This document shows, piece after piece, positions 4,808 to 14,633 of a stretch of DNA of 23,243 nt; position 1 is the stretch's first letter, and every line of letters begins with the position of its first letter. The stretch spans positions 1-23,243 of the IMG/VR virus record IMGVR_UViG_3300018083_000117. One strand, given 5' to 3'. The notes beneath the pieces are model-generated. The model made no database searches. It was given only the letters and a program-made list of their open reading frames with translations, and was not told the DNA's origin. A program made the position numbers and the translations under genes. The DNA is from a virus.

Positions 4808-5659
4808 TTATTTAGGCATTATATTATTAATTAGGCTCCCCCCCAAAGACATTCCAGCGGTGCCGCCCCCCATAGGTAAGCTAGCTAGTCCTATGCCCCC
4901 CTTCATAATGGCATCCATCATAGCGTTTTGGGAGGCGACTTTTTGCTGATAGTTTTTAAATGCTTGTTCTTGTGCAGTTGTAGCTAACCCAGCTACGTCA
5001 GTGGCAGTTTGATTAGCTTGTGGCGTATTTACTAAATTTTGAGCTATATTTCCAGGCTGGGATAGCCCCAACATTTTGTCTATCATATTTATAGGCGCAT
5101 TATATTGGTCTAAAGCCATCTTTTCAGCTTGTGGCATAAACTGTGCTATCATTCCGCCTTTAGTTAATCCTTGTTGGTTAGTAAGTTTATCCATTTCTAA
5201 TTGATAAGTTTTACTTCCCTCCATAATACCTTGATTTAATAACTCAGTTCTTTTTTGTTCCCTCTCAGGCTCCATAAAGCGCTCTAAATTCGCCATGGCG
5301 GGGTCCATGGCACGCTGTGTTAGATCATTGGCGCCGCCAACTAGATCAAACGGCTGTGTCCATTGCTCCATATTGGAGCCAATAGCGCCTCCAGCTCCAG
5401 CTCCTAGACTAGTCCTATTACTTTGTAAGTAGTCAAATATAGCTTGTTCTTCAGGGGTATATTCCTGTACTGCCTCGTATTTAGTTTCTCCAGTTATAGG
5501 ATCAATAGTACTCTTATAAGTTAATCCCCCAAGTGCATTTTTATTGCCCATAGTAGCCTGGGCAAGATTGGCTTTTTGTACGTCTGTTTGCTCCGCTCTA
5601 TTTTGAGCTGTAACCTTAGTTACGTCAATAGGCGGCGGTGCTTTAGGCGATTTAGGCAT
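4808..5659 (-). CDS. Internal virion protein (T7 gp14-position)
   Basis: 283 aa. The N-terminus is Pro/Ala-rich (PKAPPPIDVTKVTAQN), followed by a GGLTYKSTIDPITGETKY-type segment and long helical stretches rich in Gln, Asn, Ala and Met, then a hydrophobic Gly/Met C-terminus (from about 250). This architecture is familiar from podovirus proteins encoded just after the nozzle and GNAT genes, and position matches T7 gp14, an ejected core protein. Sequence identity to gp14 itself is not claimed. The ATG at 5659 overlaps the GNAT stop by 8 nt (ATGCCTAA), implying coupling. Confidence 0.6.
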   Translation of the reverse strand: MPKSPKAPPPIDVTKVTAQNRAEQTDVQKANLAQATMGNKNALGGLTYKSTIDPITGETKYEAVQEYTPEEQAIFDYLQSNRTSLGAGAGGAIGSNMEQWTQPFDLVGGANDLTQRAMDPAMANLERFMEPEREQKRTELLNQGIMEGSKTYQLEMDKLTNQQGLTKGGMIAQFMPQAEKMALDQYNAPINMIDKMLGLSQPGNIAQNLVNTPQANQTATDVAGLATTAQEQAFKNYQQKVASQNAMMDAIMKGGIGLASLPMGGGTAGMSLGGSLINNIMPK

Positions 5660-6089
5660 TTATTTTAACCCATTTAGGTATAGTATTTTTTGTAAGCTTA
5701 TATACCTTGGCATCTACGAATGTGTTACTTACTTTATAGTAATTCTCTTGTGTAAATTCATACACGAACCCTATGCGCTCTAGCAACTGCAAAAGCGTTT
5801 CGTTGGTGCAATAGGGTTTAGCAGTGAGCCTCTCGCATTTAAGTGTGTTAAATACATAACTGTATACATCTTTTATTGTTTTTTTATTCATACATTTGGG
5901 AGCATATAAGTGTATTTCTATATTAGCCTCAGTGTAATCATTAAAAATACACTGACCTACTATTTGTCCATCGTGGACCCATCCTAAAGCTCTATATGCG
6001 CCAGTAATAGGATAACCAGTGTTTCTTACAAAATACCCCGCTATAAGCTGTCCTACGCTATCTTCAGAGTTTCCTTGTATAGCGTGCAT
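5652..6089 (-). CDS. GNAT-like acetyltransferase-fold protein (T7 gp13-position)
   Basis: 145 aa. The order of elements is that of a small GNAT: a beta strand with WVHDGQIVGQCIF (37-49), a second strand EIHLYAP (58-64), a helix TIKDVYSYVFNTL, strand RLTAKPY, helix ETLLQLLERIGF (97-108), then a last strand. The usual acetyl-CoA loop Q/RxxGxG/A is not intact: the segment after the strand reads APKCMNKK. It may therefore be enzymatically altered or inactive, as thought for several phage GNAT-like virion proteins. It sits between the nozzle and the first internal protein, as T7 gp13 does. A role in internal core assembly is as likely as acetylation. Confidence 0.6.
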   Translation of the reverse strand: MHAIQGNSEDSVGQLIAGYFVRNTGYPITGAYRALGWVHDGQIVGQCIFNDYTEANIEIHLYAPKCMNKKTIKDVYSYVFNTLKCERLTAKPYCTNETLLQLLERIGFVYEFTQENYYKVSNTFVDAKVYKLTKNTIPKWVKINA

Positions 6090-7790: not shown

Positions 7791-8747
7791 TCAGCCCGTA
7801 TTAGGCCCTGTAGGACCGGGGAAGAAACCATCTTGTACGTTAGCAGGCGAGATAAAGATAGGATTAATTCTCTTGACCATATTAAGAGTTTCCCTACCAC
7901 CATCGCGAGCTATAAGTCTCTCTATGTAATTATCATAATCTGTGCGCTTGGAAGTCCAGTCGAAGCCTTTTTGTTCCCAAAAGCGCCATTTTACTCCGTT
8001 AATGACAGCACGATCACTAAGAATAGGGATATCGTCGTCATTAGCAAATAAAGCAGCAGTGGTATAAGTTCCATTTACATACACCGCATTAGTTGAGAGA
8101 TACTCAAATACTAACTGTAGGGGATCAGTTAAATCAGTCGGCGGTGGCCAAATACGATAAGTATTAGCCAAGGCACCTAACTGTCTGAAATACCTACGCG
8201 GGCCAGTAGTAACCACGCCAGATAAGTGCCACTGATCCAACTGAGGAGAACTAGGTCCAAGTAACTCCCATCTATTGGTTCTATCCCACCAAGTTCTATT
8301 TAGGAAAGAGTTAAAATCGCTTGGCTCGGGGTATAAGTCTTGTGCAAAGGTAATATCAGTAGCAGTATTATCACCTGTAGCCTCCATAGTCATTGTTATT
8401 TGAGTAGGACTGTCTACAGATAGTATCCTAGCTGCTACAGGTATATCACTGCCTGTGACAAAGAAATAACCAGCAGTAAGTGCAGACGTATCTGGGATAT
8501 TAGAGATAACTGCACTATTGGCAGTAGTATCCCCAGTAGTTTCAGTAGGAGCATTTACTACTAGGTTATATTCCTTTTGTAGTGCCGTCCAAGTGTGTCT
8601 CTGTCGTAACTCTTCTATTTCTTGATTAGCGTAGGCATACATCTGCATAGTTGTAGGCTGTAGAGAAGTTGTTACAACCGTGTCTACCGCTAAGCCTAAT
8701 TCTTGCTGAGCAGCTTGAATTATCTGTAATAAAGTTCTTTGTGCCAT
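7791..8747 (-). CDS. Head-tail adaptor (tail tubular A-like) protein
   Basis: 318 aa. The N-terminus (TLLQIIQAAQQELGL) followed by a helix with MQMYAYANQEIEELRQRHTW is typical of phage adaptor proteins that dock on the portal, including the T7 gp11/P22 gp4 functional class. A beta insertion follows at about 65-130, then PEPSDFNSFLNRTWWDRTNRWE and a C-terminal helical part with the ARD/GGRE ending. It lies immediately before the nozzle gene, as gp11 precedes gp12. It is longer than T7 gp11 because of the insertion. The ATG at 8747 has GAGG 7 nt upstream, and a structured leader precedes it. Confidence 0.65.
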   Translation of the reverse strand: MAQRTLLQIIQAAQQELGLAVDTVVTTSLQPTTMQMYAYANQEIEELRQRHTWTALQKEYNLVVNAPTETTGDTTANSAVISNIPDTSALTAGYFFVTGSDIPVAARILSVDSPTQITMTMEATGDNTATDITFAQDLYPEPSDFNSFLNRTWWDRTNRWELLGPSSPQLDQWHLSGVVTTGPRRYFRQLGALANTYRIWPPPTDLTDPLQLVFEYLSTNAVYVNGTYTTAALFANDDDIPILSDRAVINGVKWRFWEQKGFDWTSKRTDYDNYIERLIARDGGRETLNMVKRINPIFISPANVQDGFFPGPTGPNTG

Positions 8748-8831: not shown

Positions 8832-9248
8832 TTACGCCGAACCTTTACTATAGAACCAAGTGCTAATAGTAATAGGCTGGAATAATGCCTGCCAACCAGA
8901 TACCAGAGAGATACCCGTAGTTCCAGCAGTAGAGATACCATTGCCAAAGAGGGTAACAGCGCTACCTTTAGCATTATTATTGGCAAAGACTACCAGAGTA
9001 GCTGCGATATTAGAGATATAGAACTTATCTCCAAGCAAAGCGCCACCAGTAGGCGGTTCGCCACCTACAAGCGGAAGAGCAAGGCCACTAGTACCAGCAT
9101 TGACAAAATACACCCCAGGCACGCCAGGGATTTGCTTAGCTGCGCCTGCGGTAGCACCTTCTGCACTAATAGTATAAACGCCATTGGCCATAACACGAGC
9201 TAACATGTGGGGTAGACCAAGACCCATAAGGTTCTCAGGATTTGCCAT
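8832..9248 (-). CDS. Small beta-rich virion protein, possible decoration protein
   Basis: 138 aa, no named family. It begins MANPENLMGLGLPHMLARVM, a start seen on small phage head proteins. The rest is beta-rich and Gly/Ala/Thr-rich, ending in an ITISTWFYSKGSA strand. It is encoded between the second DUF115-like gene and the adaptor, which suits a decoration or minor head protein; this is inference. The ATG at 9248 has GAAGG upstream and overlaps the end of the previous gene by 14 nt. Eighty-four nt follow before the adaptor gene and hold the structured RNA candidate. Confidence 0.6.
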   Translation of the reverse strand: MANPENLMGLGLPHMLARVMANGVYTISAEGATAGAAKQIPGVPGVYFVNAGTSGLALPLVGGEPPTGGALLGDKFYISNIAATLVVFANNNAKGSAVTLFGNGISTAGTTGISLVSGWQALFQPITISTWFYSKGSA

Positions 9249-10080
9249 TTTTTAATACCTTCTCTTGTTCAAATTTAATCTTAGCCTTTGACATAAGATA
9301 CGCCAAAGGCCCATCGCTGTGTACTTCTATATCTAGCATATCGGAAAAATGTTTGAGAATATATTGGAAGTCAAAAATCTGTGCAAGCATATAGCCAGCA
9401 CACCTAAATGTAGGACTATCTTCGCCGTCTATCTTTATTTCCCTTATGTCTCCAAGAGTTTCTTTATCAGGATTTACAAAGTCATAAGCATGGTGCTTAT
9501 ACTGGTTAGTTAAACAAGTATCATACCCATACAAATGAATCTTTCTATACCCCATGGCCATAGCCATACCTATGGCTCGGGTGCCTACTGTGCATCCACC
9601 TATAATAAGCTTTTCGCCTATTTTGAATATTTTATTTTGAGCTTCATTGCCCATTGAGTTCCAGTAGTATTTCTTAGGCATATCTTTTAAGTGCTTAAAC
9701 ATAGTCCTATCACATTGAGAAGCTATTAAATAAGTAATATAAGCGTGCTTTCTCTGTAAATAATCACACATAATAGGATCAGGATCGCAAATTATACAGT
9801 ATACAGTCTGAGTATAAAGATTTCTCTCTAAGTATTCTTTTCTCACGTAATCGTGCGCTGATCCAGCTATCATTAAAGTATTGTAATTATCTAATTTACT
9901 TATATTTTTAGACAGAGAAGGCCCACCGCCGATTAAGGCGATGGGCTCATCCCTGCACGGACCTAGTAAAGAATCAATAGGAGATAAACCATATTTGTCC
10001 GCGTCTAAAATATTTTGATATATTTTAGCTGTCGGCACAGCAGTTTCTAATACTGGCGCATCTAGTTTAACCAGTGACAT
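9235..10080 (-). CDS. DUF115/GT42-like putative glycosyltransferase-fold protein, copy 2
   Basis: 281 aa from the ATG at 10080. The frame is also open to ATG 10086 and GTG 10098, but AGGA 5 nt before 10080 favours it. Motifs: IALIGGGPSL (about residues 47-56), a CDPD (98-101), GGCTVGTRAIGMAMAMGYRK with HLYGYDTC following (161-189), then KHHAY. This series is shared with the DUF115 family (MptE-like, motility accessory factor Maf) and resembles GT42 sialyltransferases, which are nucleotide- or CMP-sugar-binding Rossmann-type folds. It is a diverged paralogue of the gene at 10852-11787. Maf proteins glycosylate flagellin (established), so modification of a virion or host surface protein is a fair guess, but substrate and activity are unknown. 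It overlaps the 261-aa gene by 14 nt. Confidence 0.72.
   Translation of the reverse strand: MSLVKLDAPVLETAVPTAKIYQNILDADKYGLSPIDSLLGPCRDEPIALIGGGPSLSKNISKLDNYNTLMIAGSAHDYVRKEYLERNLYTQTVYCIICDPDPIMCDYLQRKHAYITYLIASQCDRTMFKHLKDMPKKYYWNSMGNEAQNKIFKIGEKLIIGGCTVGTRAIGMAMAMGYRKIHLYGYDTCLTNQYKHHAYDFVNPDKETLGDIREIKIDGEDSPTFRCAGYMLAQIFDFQYILKHFSDMLDIEVHSDGPLAYLMSKAKIKFEQEKVLKNGKS
9921..9946 (-). other. Intragenic RNA hairpin over the GGGP motif codons
   Basis: In the transcript GCCCATCGCC (9946-9937) pairs with GGCGGTGGGC (9930-9921) around a 6-nt loop: ten base pairs, one of them U-G. The wobble makes it complete only in the sense RNA. It covers the codons of the PIALIGGG motif, so part of it may simply reflect coding constraint. 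Confidence 0.3.
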
Positions 10081-10852
10081 TTTCATCCTGCTGTACACTA
10101 GCCATTAACGGGTCAGTGATCTTATCCTCTAGAGTAGGTGCCCTACGGCGCTTAGCCGCTTGTTGAGCTGCTTCTTTAGTAGGAGCATTATTGTTAATAC
10201 GCTCTGCCTGGGCATCATAATTGGGTATAAATGGAGGATTTAAACTAGCCCTGACAGGGTCAATAAGTTTAGTATTCATGGAATTTAACTGAGCTTTTAA
10301 CTGAGCTACAGTTTCTTCCATGATACGAGATTTCTGCTGCTCCTCCTCAAGAGCTTTCTGAAGCTTATGAAAATTAGCGCCTTTATTGGACATTTCAAGA
10401 TAAGCCTTGGCCCTATTTACATATTCTTGGCCGCCGCGTCCAATAGTATCAATGGCGTGAGCTGTAAGATTAGCGCACTGCTCAATAGTGTATACTCCTA
10501 CCCCACGTAAATTTTCACCTACAGCAGGGTGATTAGGAAATAATAGGCCAATAGGAGTACCTTCAGGTACTTGTGTCCTATCATGAATGAAATTAGCCCA
10601 AGCGTTCCTAAAGCGACGTTTATCATTGTCGGTTACAGGGCGATCGATGATATTTAACATTTCCCCTGGCTGCTGAATTTTAATATAAATCTCGTCTCGA
10701 TATACGGGGCGTCCTTCAGTGCTCATAGCAGACACATGCACAGATTTATTATAAAACATAACAAGTAGGTTACTATCATCGCCCCACTTGACCATACCTG
10801 TATGGCCGCCAGCGTTCCAATCTACCCCTGTGGGTTTAGAGTCCAAGCTCAT
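10067..10852 (-). CDS. Conserved podovirus-type virion protein of unknown function
   Basis: 261 aa. The N-terminal half contains VYRDEIYIKIQQPGEMLNII followed by RPVTDNDKRRFRNAWANF (residues about 50-88), and then a helix-hairpin-like segment in which the chain VYTIEQCANLTAHAIDTIGR resembles a fold that senses sequence order (118-140). This combination is common in phage proteins encoded near capsid genes, but I know no assigned function. Residues about 160-195 are a coiled coil (LQKALEEEQQKSRIMEETVAQLKAQL split by its heptads), and the C-terminus is basic (AAKRRRAP). It shares one nt with the preceding stop (TAATG) and overlaps the following gene. It is therefore translated together with both DUF115-like genes, and could be their partner or target. 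Confidence 0.65.
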   Translation of the reverse strand: MSLDSKPTGVDWNAGGHTGMVKWGDDSNLLVMFYNKSVHVSAMSTEGRPVYRDEIYIKIQQPGEMLNIIDRPVTDNDKRRFRNAWANFIHDRTQVPEGTPIGLLFPNHPAVGENLRGVGVYTIEQCANLTAHAIDTIGRGGQEYVNRAKAYLEMSNKGANFHKLQKALEEEQQKSRIMEETVAQLKAQLNSMNTKLIDPVRASLNPPFIPNYDAQAERINNNAPTKEAAQQAAKRRRAPTLEDKITDPLMASVQQDENVTG

Positions 10853-11787
10853 TACATTGCTCCTTTAGCTAACTGCTGCTCTAAGTCGGATTCTATCATT
10901 TTATGAAAAGCGTCTAATGCTCCGCCCCCGTGAAAAGTAGGCTTAAAGTACATTCTATGGGCGCAATAGAAGTCTTTGAAGTTCTCTAACTGAGCTAATT
11001 GATAGCCTACTACATAGTATTCTTTGGAAGATGGCCCTTCTGCATGCCCTAAGCGAATTTTATGGATCTTTTTGTCCATTATCTTCTCTTCTTCGTCACT
11101 AGCGTAACCATACGCGTGGTGCTCTTTTCCCTCTTCATCGGCAACGCAGCTATCAAATCCAAAGAAGTGTATATTAGAATAGCCCATAGAAAGAGCCAAG
11201 CAAATACTCCTAAGCCCCACAGTACATCCACCACCAACACCATTATATGTGTTACCTTTTTCAGTTTCTAATTTGATTAATTCTTCTTTTTGCTCATCGC
11301 TATGGCAGTGCCACATTACTACTTGGTAGTCTTTTAAAGTTTCAAATACACTCGGATGACTATTAGAAGAGATTAAATACTTAATCTCACTGTCGGGTTT
11401 AGTAAAATAATAAGAAGAGATTTTATCTGGGTCGCAATTAGCTGCATAAGTTGGCACTATGCCAACTGACATAAGATAATCATGCACAGAGCCGCAGCTA
11501 ATTATAGTTTTAAATGTTTTTAGCTCTTCTAGGTTATTTTTTAAGCTAGGGCCTCCGCCAACAAGAGCTATTTTCTTGGTATTTCCCTTTAATTTATTAA
11601 ATTCTGGTAGCTTTTCAAAACGTGGGTAATCTTTACCCATATTTATTCTAACATTGACTAATTGATCCCCTGAAGCAATAGCCGCGCTGGTGGCTACTCC
11701 TTTAATTCGAGAGTATTTACCAATAGTAGGAGGCGGCATTCCTGCCGCCTCCATCCTTTTGTGATCTATAGTCAGACCTTCAACCAT
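10852..11787 (-). CDS. DUF115/GT42-like putative glycosyltransferase-fold protein, copy 1
   Basis: 311 aa from ATG 11787. Motifs: KIALVGGGPSL (72-82), ANCDPDK (116-122), GGGCTVGLRSICLALSMGYS with IHFFGFDSC following (185-214), then HHAYGYAS (223-230). The order is that of DUF115/MptE-like/Maf proteins, and it resembles GT42 sialyltransferases. About 70 residues precede the domain. The ATG at 11787 has no SD; it lies 2 nt after the stop of the abundant upstream gene, so it probably depends on re-initiation. A second start at codon 17 (ATG 11739) has GGAGG upstream, but both are locked in a strong hairpin. Family members bind activated sugars or pterin diphosphates; the substrate here is unknown. 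Confidence 0.74.
   Translation of the reverse strand: MVEGLTIDHKRMEAAGMPPPTIGKYSRIKGVATSAAIASGDQLVNVRINMGKDYPRFEKLPEFNKLKGNTKKIALVGGGPSLKNNLEELKTFKTIISCGSVHDYLMSVGIVPTYAANCDPDKISSYYFTKPDSEIKYLISSNSHPSVFETLKDYQVVMWHCHSDEQKEELIKLETEKGNTYNGVGGGCTVGLRSICLALSMGYSNIHFFGFDSCVADEEGKEHHAYGYASDEEEKIMDKKIHKIRLGHAEGPSSKEYYVVGYQLAQLENFKDFYCAHRMYFKPTFHGGGALDAFHKMIESDLEQQLAKGAM
11729..11752 (-). promoter_or_regulatory. GC-rich 10-bp hairpin with GGAA tetraloop sequestering an internal start
   Basis: Perfect inverted repeat GGAGGCGGCA / TGCCGCCTCC around a 4-nt loop that reads GGAA (GNRA type) in the minus transcript. The 5' arm contains GGAGG and the loop-arm boundary contains the AUG at 11739, with an SD-to-AUG spacing of 8 nt. 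It sits 36-59 nt into the first DUF115-like gene, right after the highly expressed capsid and decoration genes, where a brake on downstream expression would make sense. On the plus strand the repeat is followed by ATCCTTTT, too weak a T-run for a confident terminator. Confidence 0.5.
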
Positions 11788-11789
11788 AA

Positions 11790-12356
11790 TTAGGCCGTTG
11801 CGCCTGCAACCAGCATATTCAGTGCCGGTAAGATATAGGTAAACACACGAGCCTCAGTCGGACCGTCTGCGCTAACCGAAATAGACGCAAGAACTTGAAT
11901 ACCCATGATCGCGTTAGACGTGATGCTAGAGGTAAACGAGCCGCTATTTCCGTTAAACGACAAGAACACAAACGCGTTAGCCTGAACCGACGGGCTAGCA
12001 CGTAAGCCTACGCCGCTGTCTGCCTTAAGAAGCGCCCAGAAGTAATCTCCAGTGTTTGCAACAGTCGATTGGAACTGAGCAAACCCGTAGAAATAGACGT
12101 TGGACACAACCAAGCCAGAGTTAATGTTGGTAGCTGCATAGCTATTATTGATTGCTACGCAATTATACTGCGTAACAGTAGCAGAAGCTATACAAAATAC
12201 CCATTCTGAGCCGTTGTTACCCTGGACCCTATCGCCAAGCTTAGCGCGAGGAGCAGGAACAGACGGATCAGTCGTGATGGTAACAGAGGACTGGACGTAG
12301 TTTAAATCTACGCCAGACTTGTTATCCATCGTATACCAGCTAGTAATAACAGCCAT
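11790..12356 (-). CDS. Probable capsid decoration protein
   Basis: 188 aa, beta-rich. The segment KLGDRVQGNNGSEWVFCIAS (39-58) and the following VTQYNCVAINNSYAATNIN resemble small phage head proteins that bind the capsid surface; no named family is certain. Support for a structural, abundant product: it follows the major capsid gene by 38 nt; it has a near-perfect SD (AAAGGAG, 7 nt from ATG); and it shares the capsid gene's higher GC and CGN-rich codon choice. The 23-nt start region is identical to that of the 101-aa gene at 21953. Confidence 0.65.
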   Translation of the reverse strand: MAVITSWYTMDNKSGVDLNYVQSSVTITTDPSVPAPRAKLGDRVQGNNGSEWVFCIASATVTQYNCVAINNSYAATNINSGLVVSNVYFYGFAQFQSTVANTGDYFWALLKADSGVGLRASPSVQANAFVFLSFNGNSGSFTSSITSNAIMGIQVLASISVSADGPTEARVFTYILPALNMLVAGATA

Positions 12357-12373
12357 TTTAGTTCTCCTTTATG
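12351..12373 (-). repeat. 23-nt translation-start repeat, copy A
   Basis: Identical to 21948-21970. The core is AAAGGAGAACTAAAATG followed by GCT, that is, SD, spacer, start codon and second codon. It sets the start of the decoration-like gene. Confidence 0.8.
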
Positions 12374-12381
12374 ACTTATCT

Positions 12382-12398
12382 CTAATATATTCTATTAG
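12382..12398 (-). other. AT-rich hairpin across the capsid gene stop codon
   Basis: CTAATA and TATTAG pair around the loop GAATA in the transcript. The capsid TAA lies in the 5' arm. There is no U-run. It is weak energetically; it may mark an mRNA processing or stability element. Confidence 0.25.
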
Positions 12399-13426
12399 GC
12401 ACTTAAAAGGCCCTGCAAGAATGCGTTAGAGAGGGTCATATTACCCGCCCAACCCAATAAGCGTACCATCGCATCCTGGTTAATAGAGAAGCGATCCGGG
12501 TCTAAAGGCACCATATTACGGGCACTATGAGGGCGCCAGTGAATATAGTTGGTGTTTAAGAAATACATGGTGTTGGTAGGCGCACCACCGACAGAAGTAG
12601 TAGACGTAGAAGTCTCGAACGGCAACGGATCACCGCTAAAGCCTTGGAATCCACCGTCTAACACAACATCGCTATTCATATACTTAAGCGACGTATATCC
12701 AGCTTCCGCAAGATCGGGAGCCGAACCGTCCGTCGATACGCGCTGAATAGACTGAAGTGCCTGAAGGTAATATTTATACATATTGTTATCGGCAACGATT
12801 AAGTCAGGGAAATCGCGACCGCGAACAAGCTGTACCCAAAGGCTGTCCATATACTGCAAGATATTTGCAGCATTGGTAGAAGCACCGCCGTTGGTAAGAG
12901 CGCTAAACACGATATTGCGATAGAACGCCCACTGCGAGCGATCAATGCCGCCTACCGTGCCCGACGTTGGTGAGCTAGCGACTAAAAGCTGCAACCCACC
13001 AATAGAGCCGGAAATAGAGCCGTCACCGTACACGCCGTTAGAGAGACCGTTCATAAAGGTCTGCTCGCCATTTTCGACGCGCGACTCTAACAGATCAATA
13101 ATGGCCTCTTCGCCACTATTCTGTAATTCCTCAAGGCCAGAGATAGACACAGCTAAAGCTGCTTGGCGGATGGGGAACTCAGCTGCGGTAAATACCTGCG
13201 ACGGGTTAATATTAACAGTCTGATAACCCGAATACCAAGTAAATGTAGTATTGTTCGCGTAGTTTAATTCCTGAACAATAGTACGACCGCCGGAGAACGT
13301 CTTAATACGACCTTTACGGTTCAAACGAGCGAGAACCGCGTTATTACGACTAACGTTATCCTGAAGAACGCCTGTGCGGTTCCGCAGGGTAGTAGTCGTT
13401 ACTTCTGACAGATTAGGAAAAGGCAT
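12395..13426 (-). CDS. Major capsid protein (HK97-fold type)
   Basis: 343 aa. It begins MPFPNLSEVTTTTLRNRTGVLQDNVSRNN and continues with KTFSGGRTIVQELNYANN and TFTWYSGYQTVNINPSQVFTA. The order is an N-arm, then an E-loop-like segment, then ISGLEELQNSGEEAIIDLLESR, a spine-helix-like region (about 110-130). The C-terminal half has WVQLVRGRDFPDLIVADNNMY and an NYIHWRPHSARNM P-domain/A-domain strand. This is the usual build of podovirus HK97-fold coat proteins of this size. It lies directly downstream of the acidic scaffold gene. Its codon use is shifted to CGN arginine and C-ending codons (57 % GC in the line at 12901), unlike its neighbours at 32-40 %, consistent with very high expression. The ATG at 13426 has AGTAGG as a modest SD. 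Confidence 0.9.
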   Translation of the reverse strand: MPFPNLSEVTTTTLRNRTGVLQDNVSRNNAVLARLNRKGRIKTFSGGRTIVQELNYANNTTFTWYSGYQTVNINPSQVFTAAEFPIRQAALAVSISGLEELQNSGEEAIIDLLESRVENGEQTFMNGLSNGVYGDGSISGSIGGLQLLVASSPTSGTVGGIDRSQWAFYRNIVFSALTNGGASTNAANILQYMDSLWVQLVRGRDFPDLIVADNNMYKYYLQALQSIQRVSTDGSAPDLAEAGYTSLKYMNSDVVLDGGFQGFSGDPLPFETSTSTTSVGGAPTNTMYFLNTNYIHWRPHSARNMVPLDPDRFSINQDAMVRLLGWAGNMTLSNAFLQGLLSA

Positions 13427-13460
13427 TTTACCTACTCTTTATATCAAGGGTTTATAGTAA

Positions 13461-14633
13461 TTAGTCTCTTAATTCCTCTATAGATTTACGGATTGAAGCT
13501 CTAATAGAGTTATCTTCCTTACCTTTACCGTTTAAATTGCCCGCAGGCAGTGAAGGTGCAGCAGGTTTGAGCCCCGCGCCAGCCTTTCTAGCTCTCGCTA
13601 ATCTGTCTGCTTTATCCTTGGCATCTTTCAAAGCTTTTTGAGAAGCTTCTGCGGCAATCTTTTGGTTAGCCTCTTGTTGAATAAGGGCTGAAACCTCGGG
13701 ATTTACCTTGATAGCCATTTCATAGGCGCCATCTAAATTAACCGCACCACTTGCGTTTAATGCTGGTACTGCACCACTCTGTAATAGCTGGCCCATAAGT
13801 TGGGACACAGTATTATAGTGAGGCTTGTCTTTAGCCCAATTCAAGATATAACTCTCTGTAGAAGCTTCCCTTTGAGCGGTAAGCTGCTGTTCAAGAGTCC
13901 CTATCTTTCCTTCTACAGTACTAGTAAATTCATTAAACCAAGTAGGCGGAGCGTCAGGGTCTGGAGTCTCTTCTGTAGCTTGTCCGTTAGAGACTAATTG
14001 GTTTATATTTACTCCAAAGCTAGAAGCTAGTTCTTTGAACGTACTAAGCTTCCTCTTTGGATCATTTAATCCTTCCATCCAACCGAAAAGTCTGTCTACT
14101 ACTACTCCTGGCGAAACCCCATACTGTTGAATTTGCTGGAGTCTCGGAGCGATTGCTCGCTCTATTTCCTCAACGCCTTTGATGCGTTGAGAAAACTGCT
14201 TAAACCCGTTGGAGACTTCCTCCTCGCGGGATAAGATTACTTTTTTATCTTCTGGGGATAATTTATCCCACGTAGCTTTGCCCTTAACTTTAAAGAAAGG
14301 CGGCGCCTCTATAGCGGGCTCTTCTTTTACTTCTTTCTTTTCTTTGCCCTCTTCTGAAGAAAGAGATTCCTCTGAATCCTCTTTCTCTTTACTCTCAAGC
14401 TCTCTTTTCTCAGTCTCTTCCTTATCAACATCGGAAACAGACTTTGATCGCTTATTAGAAGTACCACGGGGCTCTCGCGCCACTGATACTCTGCTTTCGT
14501 CATCATCTCCATCTTCGCTGTGCTCCTTTACAGCGGCATTAATCGCGCTCCTAACATCCTTAGGGGCTTCATCCTGCTCCTCTGAGCCGGGAATGATAGT
14601 ATCTGCTTCGAGACCGTCTTTAGCTCCTGCCAT
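13461..14633 (-). CDS. Head scaffolding protein
   Basis: 390 aa, highly charged and helical. Residues about 1-110 are strongly acidic and disordered (runs of E, D, S and K). The middle is helical, with VEEIERAIAPRLQQIQQYGVSPG and an FGWMEGLNDPKRKLSTFKELASSFG segment, a domain commonly found in phage scaffolds. 230-260 is a coiled coil (TVEGKIGTLEQQLTAQ). The C-terminus is Ala/Lys-rich and ends RASIRKSIEELRD, a typical short helix for binding the coat protein. Its place between portal and coat agrees. The SD before ATG 14633 is poor, and the 59-nt leader contains a hairpin. Confidence 0.82.
   Translation of the reverse strand: MAGAKDGLEADTIIPGSEEQDEAPKDVRSAINAAVKEHSEDGDDDESRVSVAREPRGTSNKRSKSVSDVDKEETEKRELESKEKEDSEESLSSEEGKEKKEVKEEPAIEAPPFFKVKGKATWDKLSPEDKKVILSREEEVSNGFKQFSQRIKGVEEIERAIAPRLQQIQQYGVSPGVVVDRLFGWMEGLNDPKRKLSTFKELASSFGVNINQLVSNGQATEETPDPDAPPTWFNEFTSTVEGKIGTLEQQLTAQREASTESYILNWAKDKPHYNTVSQLMGQLLQSGAVPALNASGAVNLDGAYEMAIKVNPEVSALIQQEANQKIAAEASQKALKDAKDKADRLARARKAGAGLKPAAPSLPAGNLNGKGKEDNSIRASIRKSIEELRD

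Follow-up and report, generated by a model that had tools for sequence, protein, structure and literature searches.

Why does a virus carry two genes of the DUF115 family (PF01973) among the genes that build its capsid? The question is raised by a 23,243-base IMG/VR fragment, the whole of which is called the window here. The pair sits between the genes for the major capsid protein (MCP) and a capsid cement-type protein on one side and an adaptor gene on the other, and the genes around it also encode terminase, portal and lysozyme-domain proteins. The same domain, pfam01973, forms the central part of Maf, where it resembles Cst-II, and Maf enzymes O-glycosylate Ser/Thr residues of flagellin with nonulosonic acids (PMC11339370). 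A few mycobacteriophages are known to glycosylate their virions, with phage glycosyltransferases of Che8, Corndog and Myrna modifying capsid and tail-tube proteins (Freeman et al. 2023, cited in PMC12363180). Openly licensed papers on DUF115 with phage yielded nothing relevant; one BREX match was rejected, as the protein there is DUF1156. The combination of Maf-type transferases with a phage nonulosonic-acid cassette was not described in the openly licensed papers searched. The reading that we favour, and consider probable, is that the pair are minimal Maf-type transferases that would move a CMP-nonulosonic acid, made by a phage-borne cassette, onto surface proteins of the virion.

Two old paralogues in a tightly packed gene block

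As the sequence-only reading had described, the two DUF115 copies flank a single gene with overlaps of 1 nt (copy A with the p50-like gene) and 14 nt (the p50-like gene with copy B, counted from the ATG at 10080), all on the minus strand (Table 1). Copy B overlaps the gene for the 138-aa protein by a further 14 nt, and copy A starts 2 nt after the end of the 188-aa gene. No further PF01973 gene was found in the window. The 138-aa protein had no match in the Pfam or PHROG search. Further along lies a GNAT-like gene that most relatives, with or without DUF115, keep next to the head-closure-type gene; it possibly encodes another virion-modifying enzyme.

Table 1. Positions of the DUF115 pair and neighbouring genes in the window
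Feature	Coordinates	Strand	Remarks
DUF115 copy A, resembling the central domain of Maf; predicted glycosyltransferase with a CMP-sugar donor	10852-11787	-	311 aa
DUF115 copy B; ancient paralogue of copy A	9235-10080	-	ATG start, AGGA upstream
Copy B, longer alternative	9235-10098	-	GTG start possible
p50-like core morphogenesis protein, Mx8 p50 family	10067-10852	-	261 aa, coiled-coil-type stretch
Capsid cement/decoration-type protein; first acceptor candidate	11790-12356	-	188 aa, fold model
138-aa protein; second acceptor candidate	8832-9248	-	follows copy B in every relative having B
Major capsid protein (MCP)	12395-13426	-	phrog_9953 E 9.4e-107; 53% identity to Bradyrhizobium phage MCP
Adaptor/tail-tube-like protein	7791-8747	-	phrog_6013 E 6.3e-31; SU10 adaptor below cut-off
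GNAT-like acyltransferase after head-closure-type gene	5652-6089	-	phrog_4470; annotated in relatives

Both copies score well above the curated PF01973 cut-off of 34.6 bits (81.3 for copy A, 59.4 for copy B), and they share 33% identity over 206 aa (E 3e-37), which excludes a chance resemblance. The motif series noticed earlier in the two proteins (GGGPSL, CDPD, GGCTVG-R, G-DSC or G-DTC, HHAY) is present in both and conserved across the wider family. The PHROG search of the window proteins gave a weak match to phrog_4603, a sialyltransferase. In a tree, the copy B sequences form one clade (support 99/96), from which it follows that A and B are separate old lineages stemming from one old duplication. 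Different substrates for the two are possible given these old lineages, yet both have kept the same candidate donor-site residues.

Neither A nor B found a relative as a single-protein query against viral contigs and 50,697 phage records; relatives were reached only after searching with an alignment of the two. A wider alignment of the family contained no stretch sufficiently conserved for scanning. The cultured phage records in the collection held no detectable relative of either copy, and a scan of genome contigs with the family alignment confirmed none, so that no host or prophage was identified by this route.

A fixed slot beside the capsid genes

Relatives were collected by an MCP-anchored scan (80 loci) and by DUF115-anchored scans (11, then 24 loci) that covered 2.9 million viral contigs. 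At every mappable locus, the DUF115 gene is found on one or the other side of p50, in the gap towards the MCP/cement gene or in that towards the 138-aa gene (the divergent record L099 has no recognised p50), which bears out the earlier placement of the pair in the capsid-to-adaptor segment. The full order A-p50-B-138 recurs in eight IMG/VR relatives, namely L010, L090 (with an extra A copy), L091, L094 (p50 at 8894-9727), L095, L096, L101 and L102, and L097 and L098 have copy A only. The placement holds even where MCP identity falls to about 50%, and none of the 19 whole records has a DUF115 gene outside the MCP-to-adaptor slot. Other relatives have no DUF115, and in these the cement gene is followed directly by p50; phages of Bradyrhizobium, Stenotrophomonas, Myxococcus and Rhizobium have other genes or none between cement and p50. 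By eye, HNH-endonuclease-like genes were seen near or inside the MCP region of L073/L098, L014, L038, L088 and L105, and in L073/L098 and L105 the MCP match falls into two pieces.

This position points to a virion protein as the most likely acceptor. A different reading, which we regard as unlikely, is that the transferases and the cassette alter the host surface (LPS, capsule or flagellin) and thereby block superinfection or change receptors, leaving the virion itself unmodified. The natural acceptor of Maf is indeed flagellin, and Acinetobacter phage genes (epaA/epaB, O-acetyltransferases) are documented to modify nonulosonic acids of the host capsule (PMC6586298, PMC12053666). These genes resemble what is predicted for the present ones in acting on nonulosonic acids, but they alter the host capsule, whereas here a synthesis cassette accompanies putative transferases in a capsid operon. 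Against a host-surface role stands the confinement of DUF115 to the capsid-to-adaptor segment, with short overlaps, throughout this range of MCP divergence and with no copy elsewhere in the whole records.

The 261-aa p50-like protein has tblastn matches in Mx8, Mx9, BUCT555 and others, and its gene occupies the same position in relatives without DUF115; it is therefore a core phage gene with no DUF115-specific partnership. Hence, of the earlier proposal that the phage modifies its own capsid or tail, the virion protein as target is favoured by gene position, and a dedicated adaptor role for the 261-aa coiled-coil protein finds no support. The 188-aa protein makes a stronger acceptor candidate, as it models as a capsid cement or decoration protein. 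The AlphaFold model is of moderate confidence (pLDDT 74), and its highest-ranking matches in Foldseek and VIA are all to phage proteins of the capsid cement, decoration or head-fibre kind (Z up to 11.3), including those of Pam3, XM1, FCWL1 and T1; relatives of the protein match phrog_29386, a virion structural protein. The 138-aa protein beside copy B is a second candidate. Candidate acceptors are no richer in Ser/Thr in phages with DUF115 than in those without: the 188-aa protein contains 20%, and the two groups of homologues average 19% and 18%, so composition neither supports nor excludes the 188-aa protein as acceptor.

Sugar enzymes fused to, beside or accompanying DUF115

The relatives fall into records with a stand-alone DUF115 gene and records of a fused type, in which the DUF115 protein of the slot carries an N-terminal GT8-related domain (profile matches to Skp1 galactosyltransferase, E 1.7e-7, and glycogenin, 4.5e-6). 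Fused-type proteins also match phrog_1962, a glycosyltransferase, and several end in an FkbM or other methyltransferase domain. Genes adjoining DUF115 in relatives include those for FkbM, hexapeptide acyltransferases and methyltransferases. The hexapeptide acyltransferase genes lie in the slot itself, ahead of the GT8-DUF115 gene, in L075 (3326-4111) and L083 (9615-10798), and the L083 slot also holds a gene that weakly resembles hydrolases (UPF0227, below cut-off). PF00483 (NTP_transferase) and PF00535 (GT2) have no match in the 19 whole records, all of which carry DUF115. Like the mycobacteriophage enzymes, the predicted transferases here would be phage-encoded glycosyltransferases that modify virion proteins; the literature consulted on mycobacteriophages describes neither Maf/DUF115 enzymes nor a phage-borne nonulosonic-acid cassette.

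A CMP-sugar synthase (PF02348) is encoded in all 11 longer stand-alone-type records, in none of the 8 fused-type records and in none of 32 other relatives. The NeuB/PseI synthase (PF03102) has a similar distribution (10/11, 0/8 and 0/28), and in L102, the one stand-alone-type record without it, the contig begins inside the cassette. Ten of the 11 records belong to one related group, so they do not represent 11 independent events; L099 is more divergent and shows the same link, as it encodes NeuB, CMP synthase and a PseC-like protein of full length. As a pattern, the association is strong.

Nine records have a cassette of PseB, PseC, PseI, amidotransferase, HisF2, CMP synthase, methylase and GNAT genes, in which the place of the GNAT gene varies and single genes were undetected in two records. 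In L123, PseI (TIGR03586, 386.5 bits against a cut-off of 340.25), WbuX and the Pse-associated methylase (Pse_Me-ase) score above the NCBI cut-offs, and PseB, PseC and WbuZ are clear but below them. The record with the closest MCP (L010, 89%) carries the cassette. PseG was not found, nor was PF04101, and the relatives do not show the complete PseB, C, H, G, I and F set, with PseG undetected, PseB below the NCBI cut-off and PseC partial. The PseC-like gene of L121-L128 and L130 (for example, L123:4534-5166) encodes about 210 aa, of which some 70 N-terminal residues match PseC/DegT; L129 has a 354-aa version. The shorter protein may be a minimal aminotransferase. Given the undetected PseG and the short PseC-like gene, host enzymes may be required to complete the sugar, or it may be something other than pseudaminic acid.

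Two side observations come from the same records: in L130, a stomatin/prohibitin-like (SPFH) protein, recognised by eye, is encoded next to the sugar cassette (12750-13673), and L125 contains a CRISPR-like array of eight regular 29-nt repeats with 61-nt spacing (10926-11381), adjoined by a TnpB-like transposase gene (11657-13078).

The window itself contains no cassette genes. Judging from the relatives, the donor is likely to be a phage-made CMP-pseudaminic-acid-type sugar, from a cassette that we infer for the unsequenced part of this phage. Several DUF115 phages show no CMP synthase (the fused type, and L013-L015, L026 and L058), and in these the donors may differ or be host-derived. Among cultured phage records, three have PseI-like matches, which are weak.

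Fold, candidate donor site and proposed role

The earlier assignment of the pair to Maf/GT42-type enzymes agrees with these fusions, neighbours and cassettes, and also with the fold, which was computed for copy A only, copy B being judged by homology. The AlphaFold model of copy A, made with 27 family members, has a pLDDT of 90.3 and a pTM of 0.88. Its best PDB match is Maf of Magnetospirillum magneticum (5mu5; Z 20.0 over 221 residues, Foldseek E 8.8e-9), followed by MptE (8sd5, Z 14.6), GT29 (Z 9.8) and CstII of GT42 (Z 9.7). The family profile likewise matches Maf best (E 9.5e-14), then MptE (E 4.7e-8). The likeness to Maf is confined to its central PF01973 domain: copy A matches residues 244-503 of the 632 in 5mu5, and the phage proteins, at about 280-310 aa, are without the N- and C-terminal domains of the three-domain Maf architecture. 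A further difference from Maf is the genetic setting, with capsid genes in place of flagellar genes as neighbours. GT42 and GT29 enzymes share with the phage family the general fold (Z about 9.7), a GxGPS motif and a T-G...G-D stretch, and their donors are CMP-sugars, as predicted for the phage enzymes; sequence similarity to CstII is marginal (E 0.024-0.076), and the known members act on glycans as acceptors.

Residues G77-S81, D119, W159, G187, T189, G210, D212, Y226 and Q266 (copy A numbering) are conserved or nearly so in the family. On the alignment to CstII, the region of T189 and Y226 probably corresponds to the CMP site of that enzyme. Conservation of the candidate active-site residues in both paralogues argues against the view that DUF115 proteins belong to the virion and act on the host envelope during entry, or are non-catalytic binding proteins, for which their place among structural genes, in a conserved slot, would speak. 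The fusions to other sugar enzymes and a cassette whose product would be a donor in the cytoplasm also fit this view poorly, and we hold it to be very unlikely.

About as improbable, or slightly more so, is that A and B are no glycosyltransferases but pyrophosphokinases of the MptE kind, with a pterin or some other small molecule as substrate. The Pfam family name points that way, as does the rank of MptE (6-hydroxymethylpterin diphosphokinase, or HPPK), which has the same Pfam family and fold, as second-best structure with a significant profile match. However, Maf is clearly ahead in both fold and profile, and the TDGDR stretch of MptE reads T-V-G-x-R in the phage family, with loss of the acidic positions, which are presumably the catalytic ones. 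The gene context is sugar-related, with fusions to the GT8-like domain and to methyltransferases and with linkage to CMP-sugar synthase and NeuB. That the slot is a mere cargo hot spot with DUF115 as a passenger, as unrelated (for example, HNH-endonuclease-like) genes in the slot of some relatives might suggest, is scarcely credible given its recurrence there across deep divergence, with no copy elsewhere in the 19 whole records, and the retention of A and B as a pair since an old duplication.

Taken together, the sequence evidence makes CMP-nonulosonic-acid transfer the most likely activity of the Maf-type pair. Copies A and B would each be a Maf central domain that binds a CMP-activated nonulosonic acid, probably of the pseudaminic-acid type and produced by the phage-borne cassette, and would transfer it during late expression onto virion surface proteins, first the 188-aa cement protein next to A and second the 138-aa protein next to B. 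More tentatively, and with rather less confidence, we suggest that a group of uncultivated podovirus-like phages may make its own nonulosonic acid (pseudaminic-type, possibly acetamidino-modified), with which two dedicated Maf-type enzymes, one per surface protein, would decorate the capsid.

With Maf-like genes among the capsid genes and sugar-making genes in relatives, these viruses probably sugar-coat their own particles. If true, this would be a virus with a self-made sialic-acid-like coat and a separate solution to virion glycosylation, for which donor, enzyme pair and acceptor are all predicted, and it would hint at what the unannotated 'MptE-like' proteins of uncultured phages are for.
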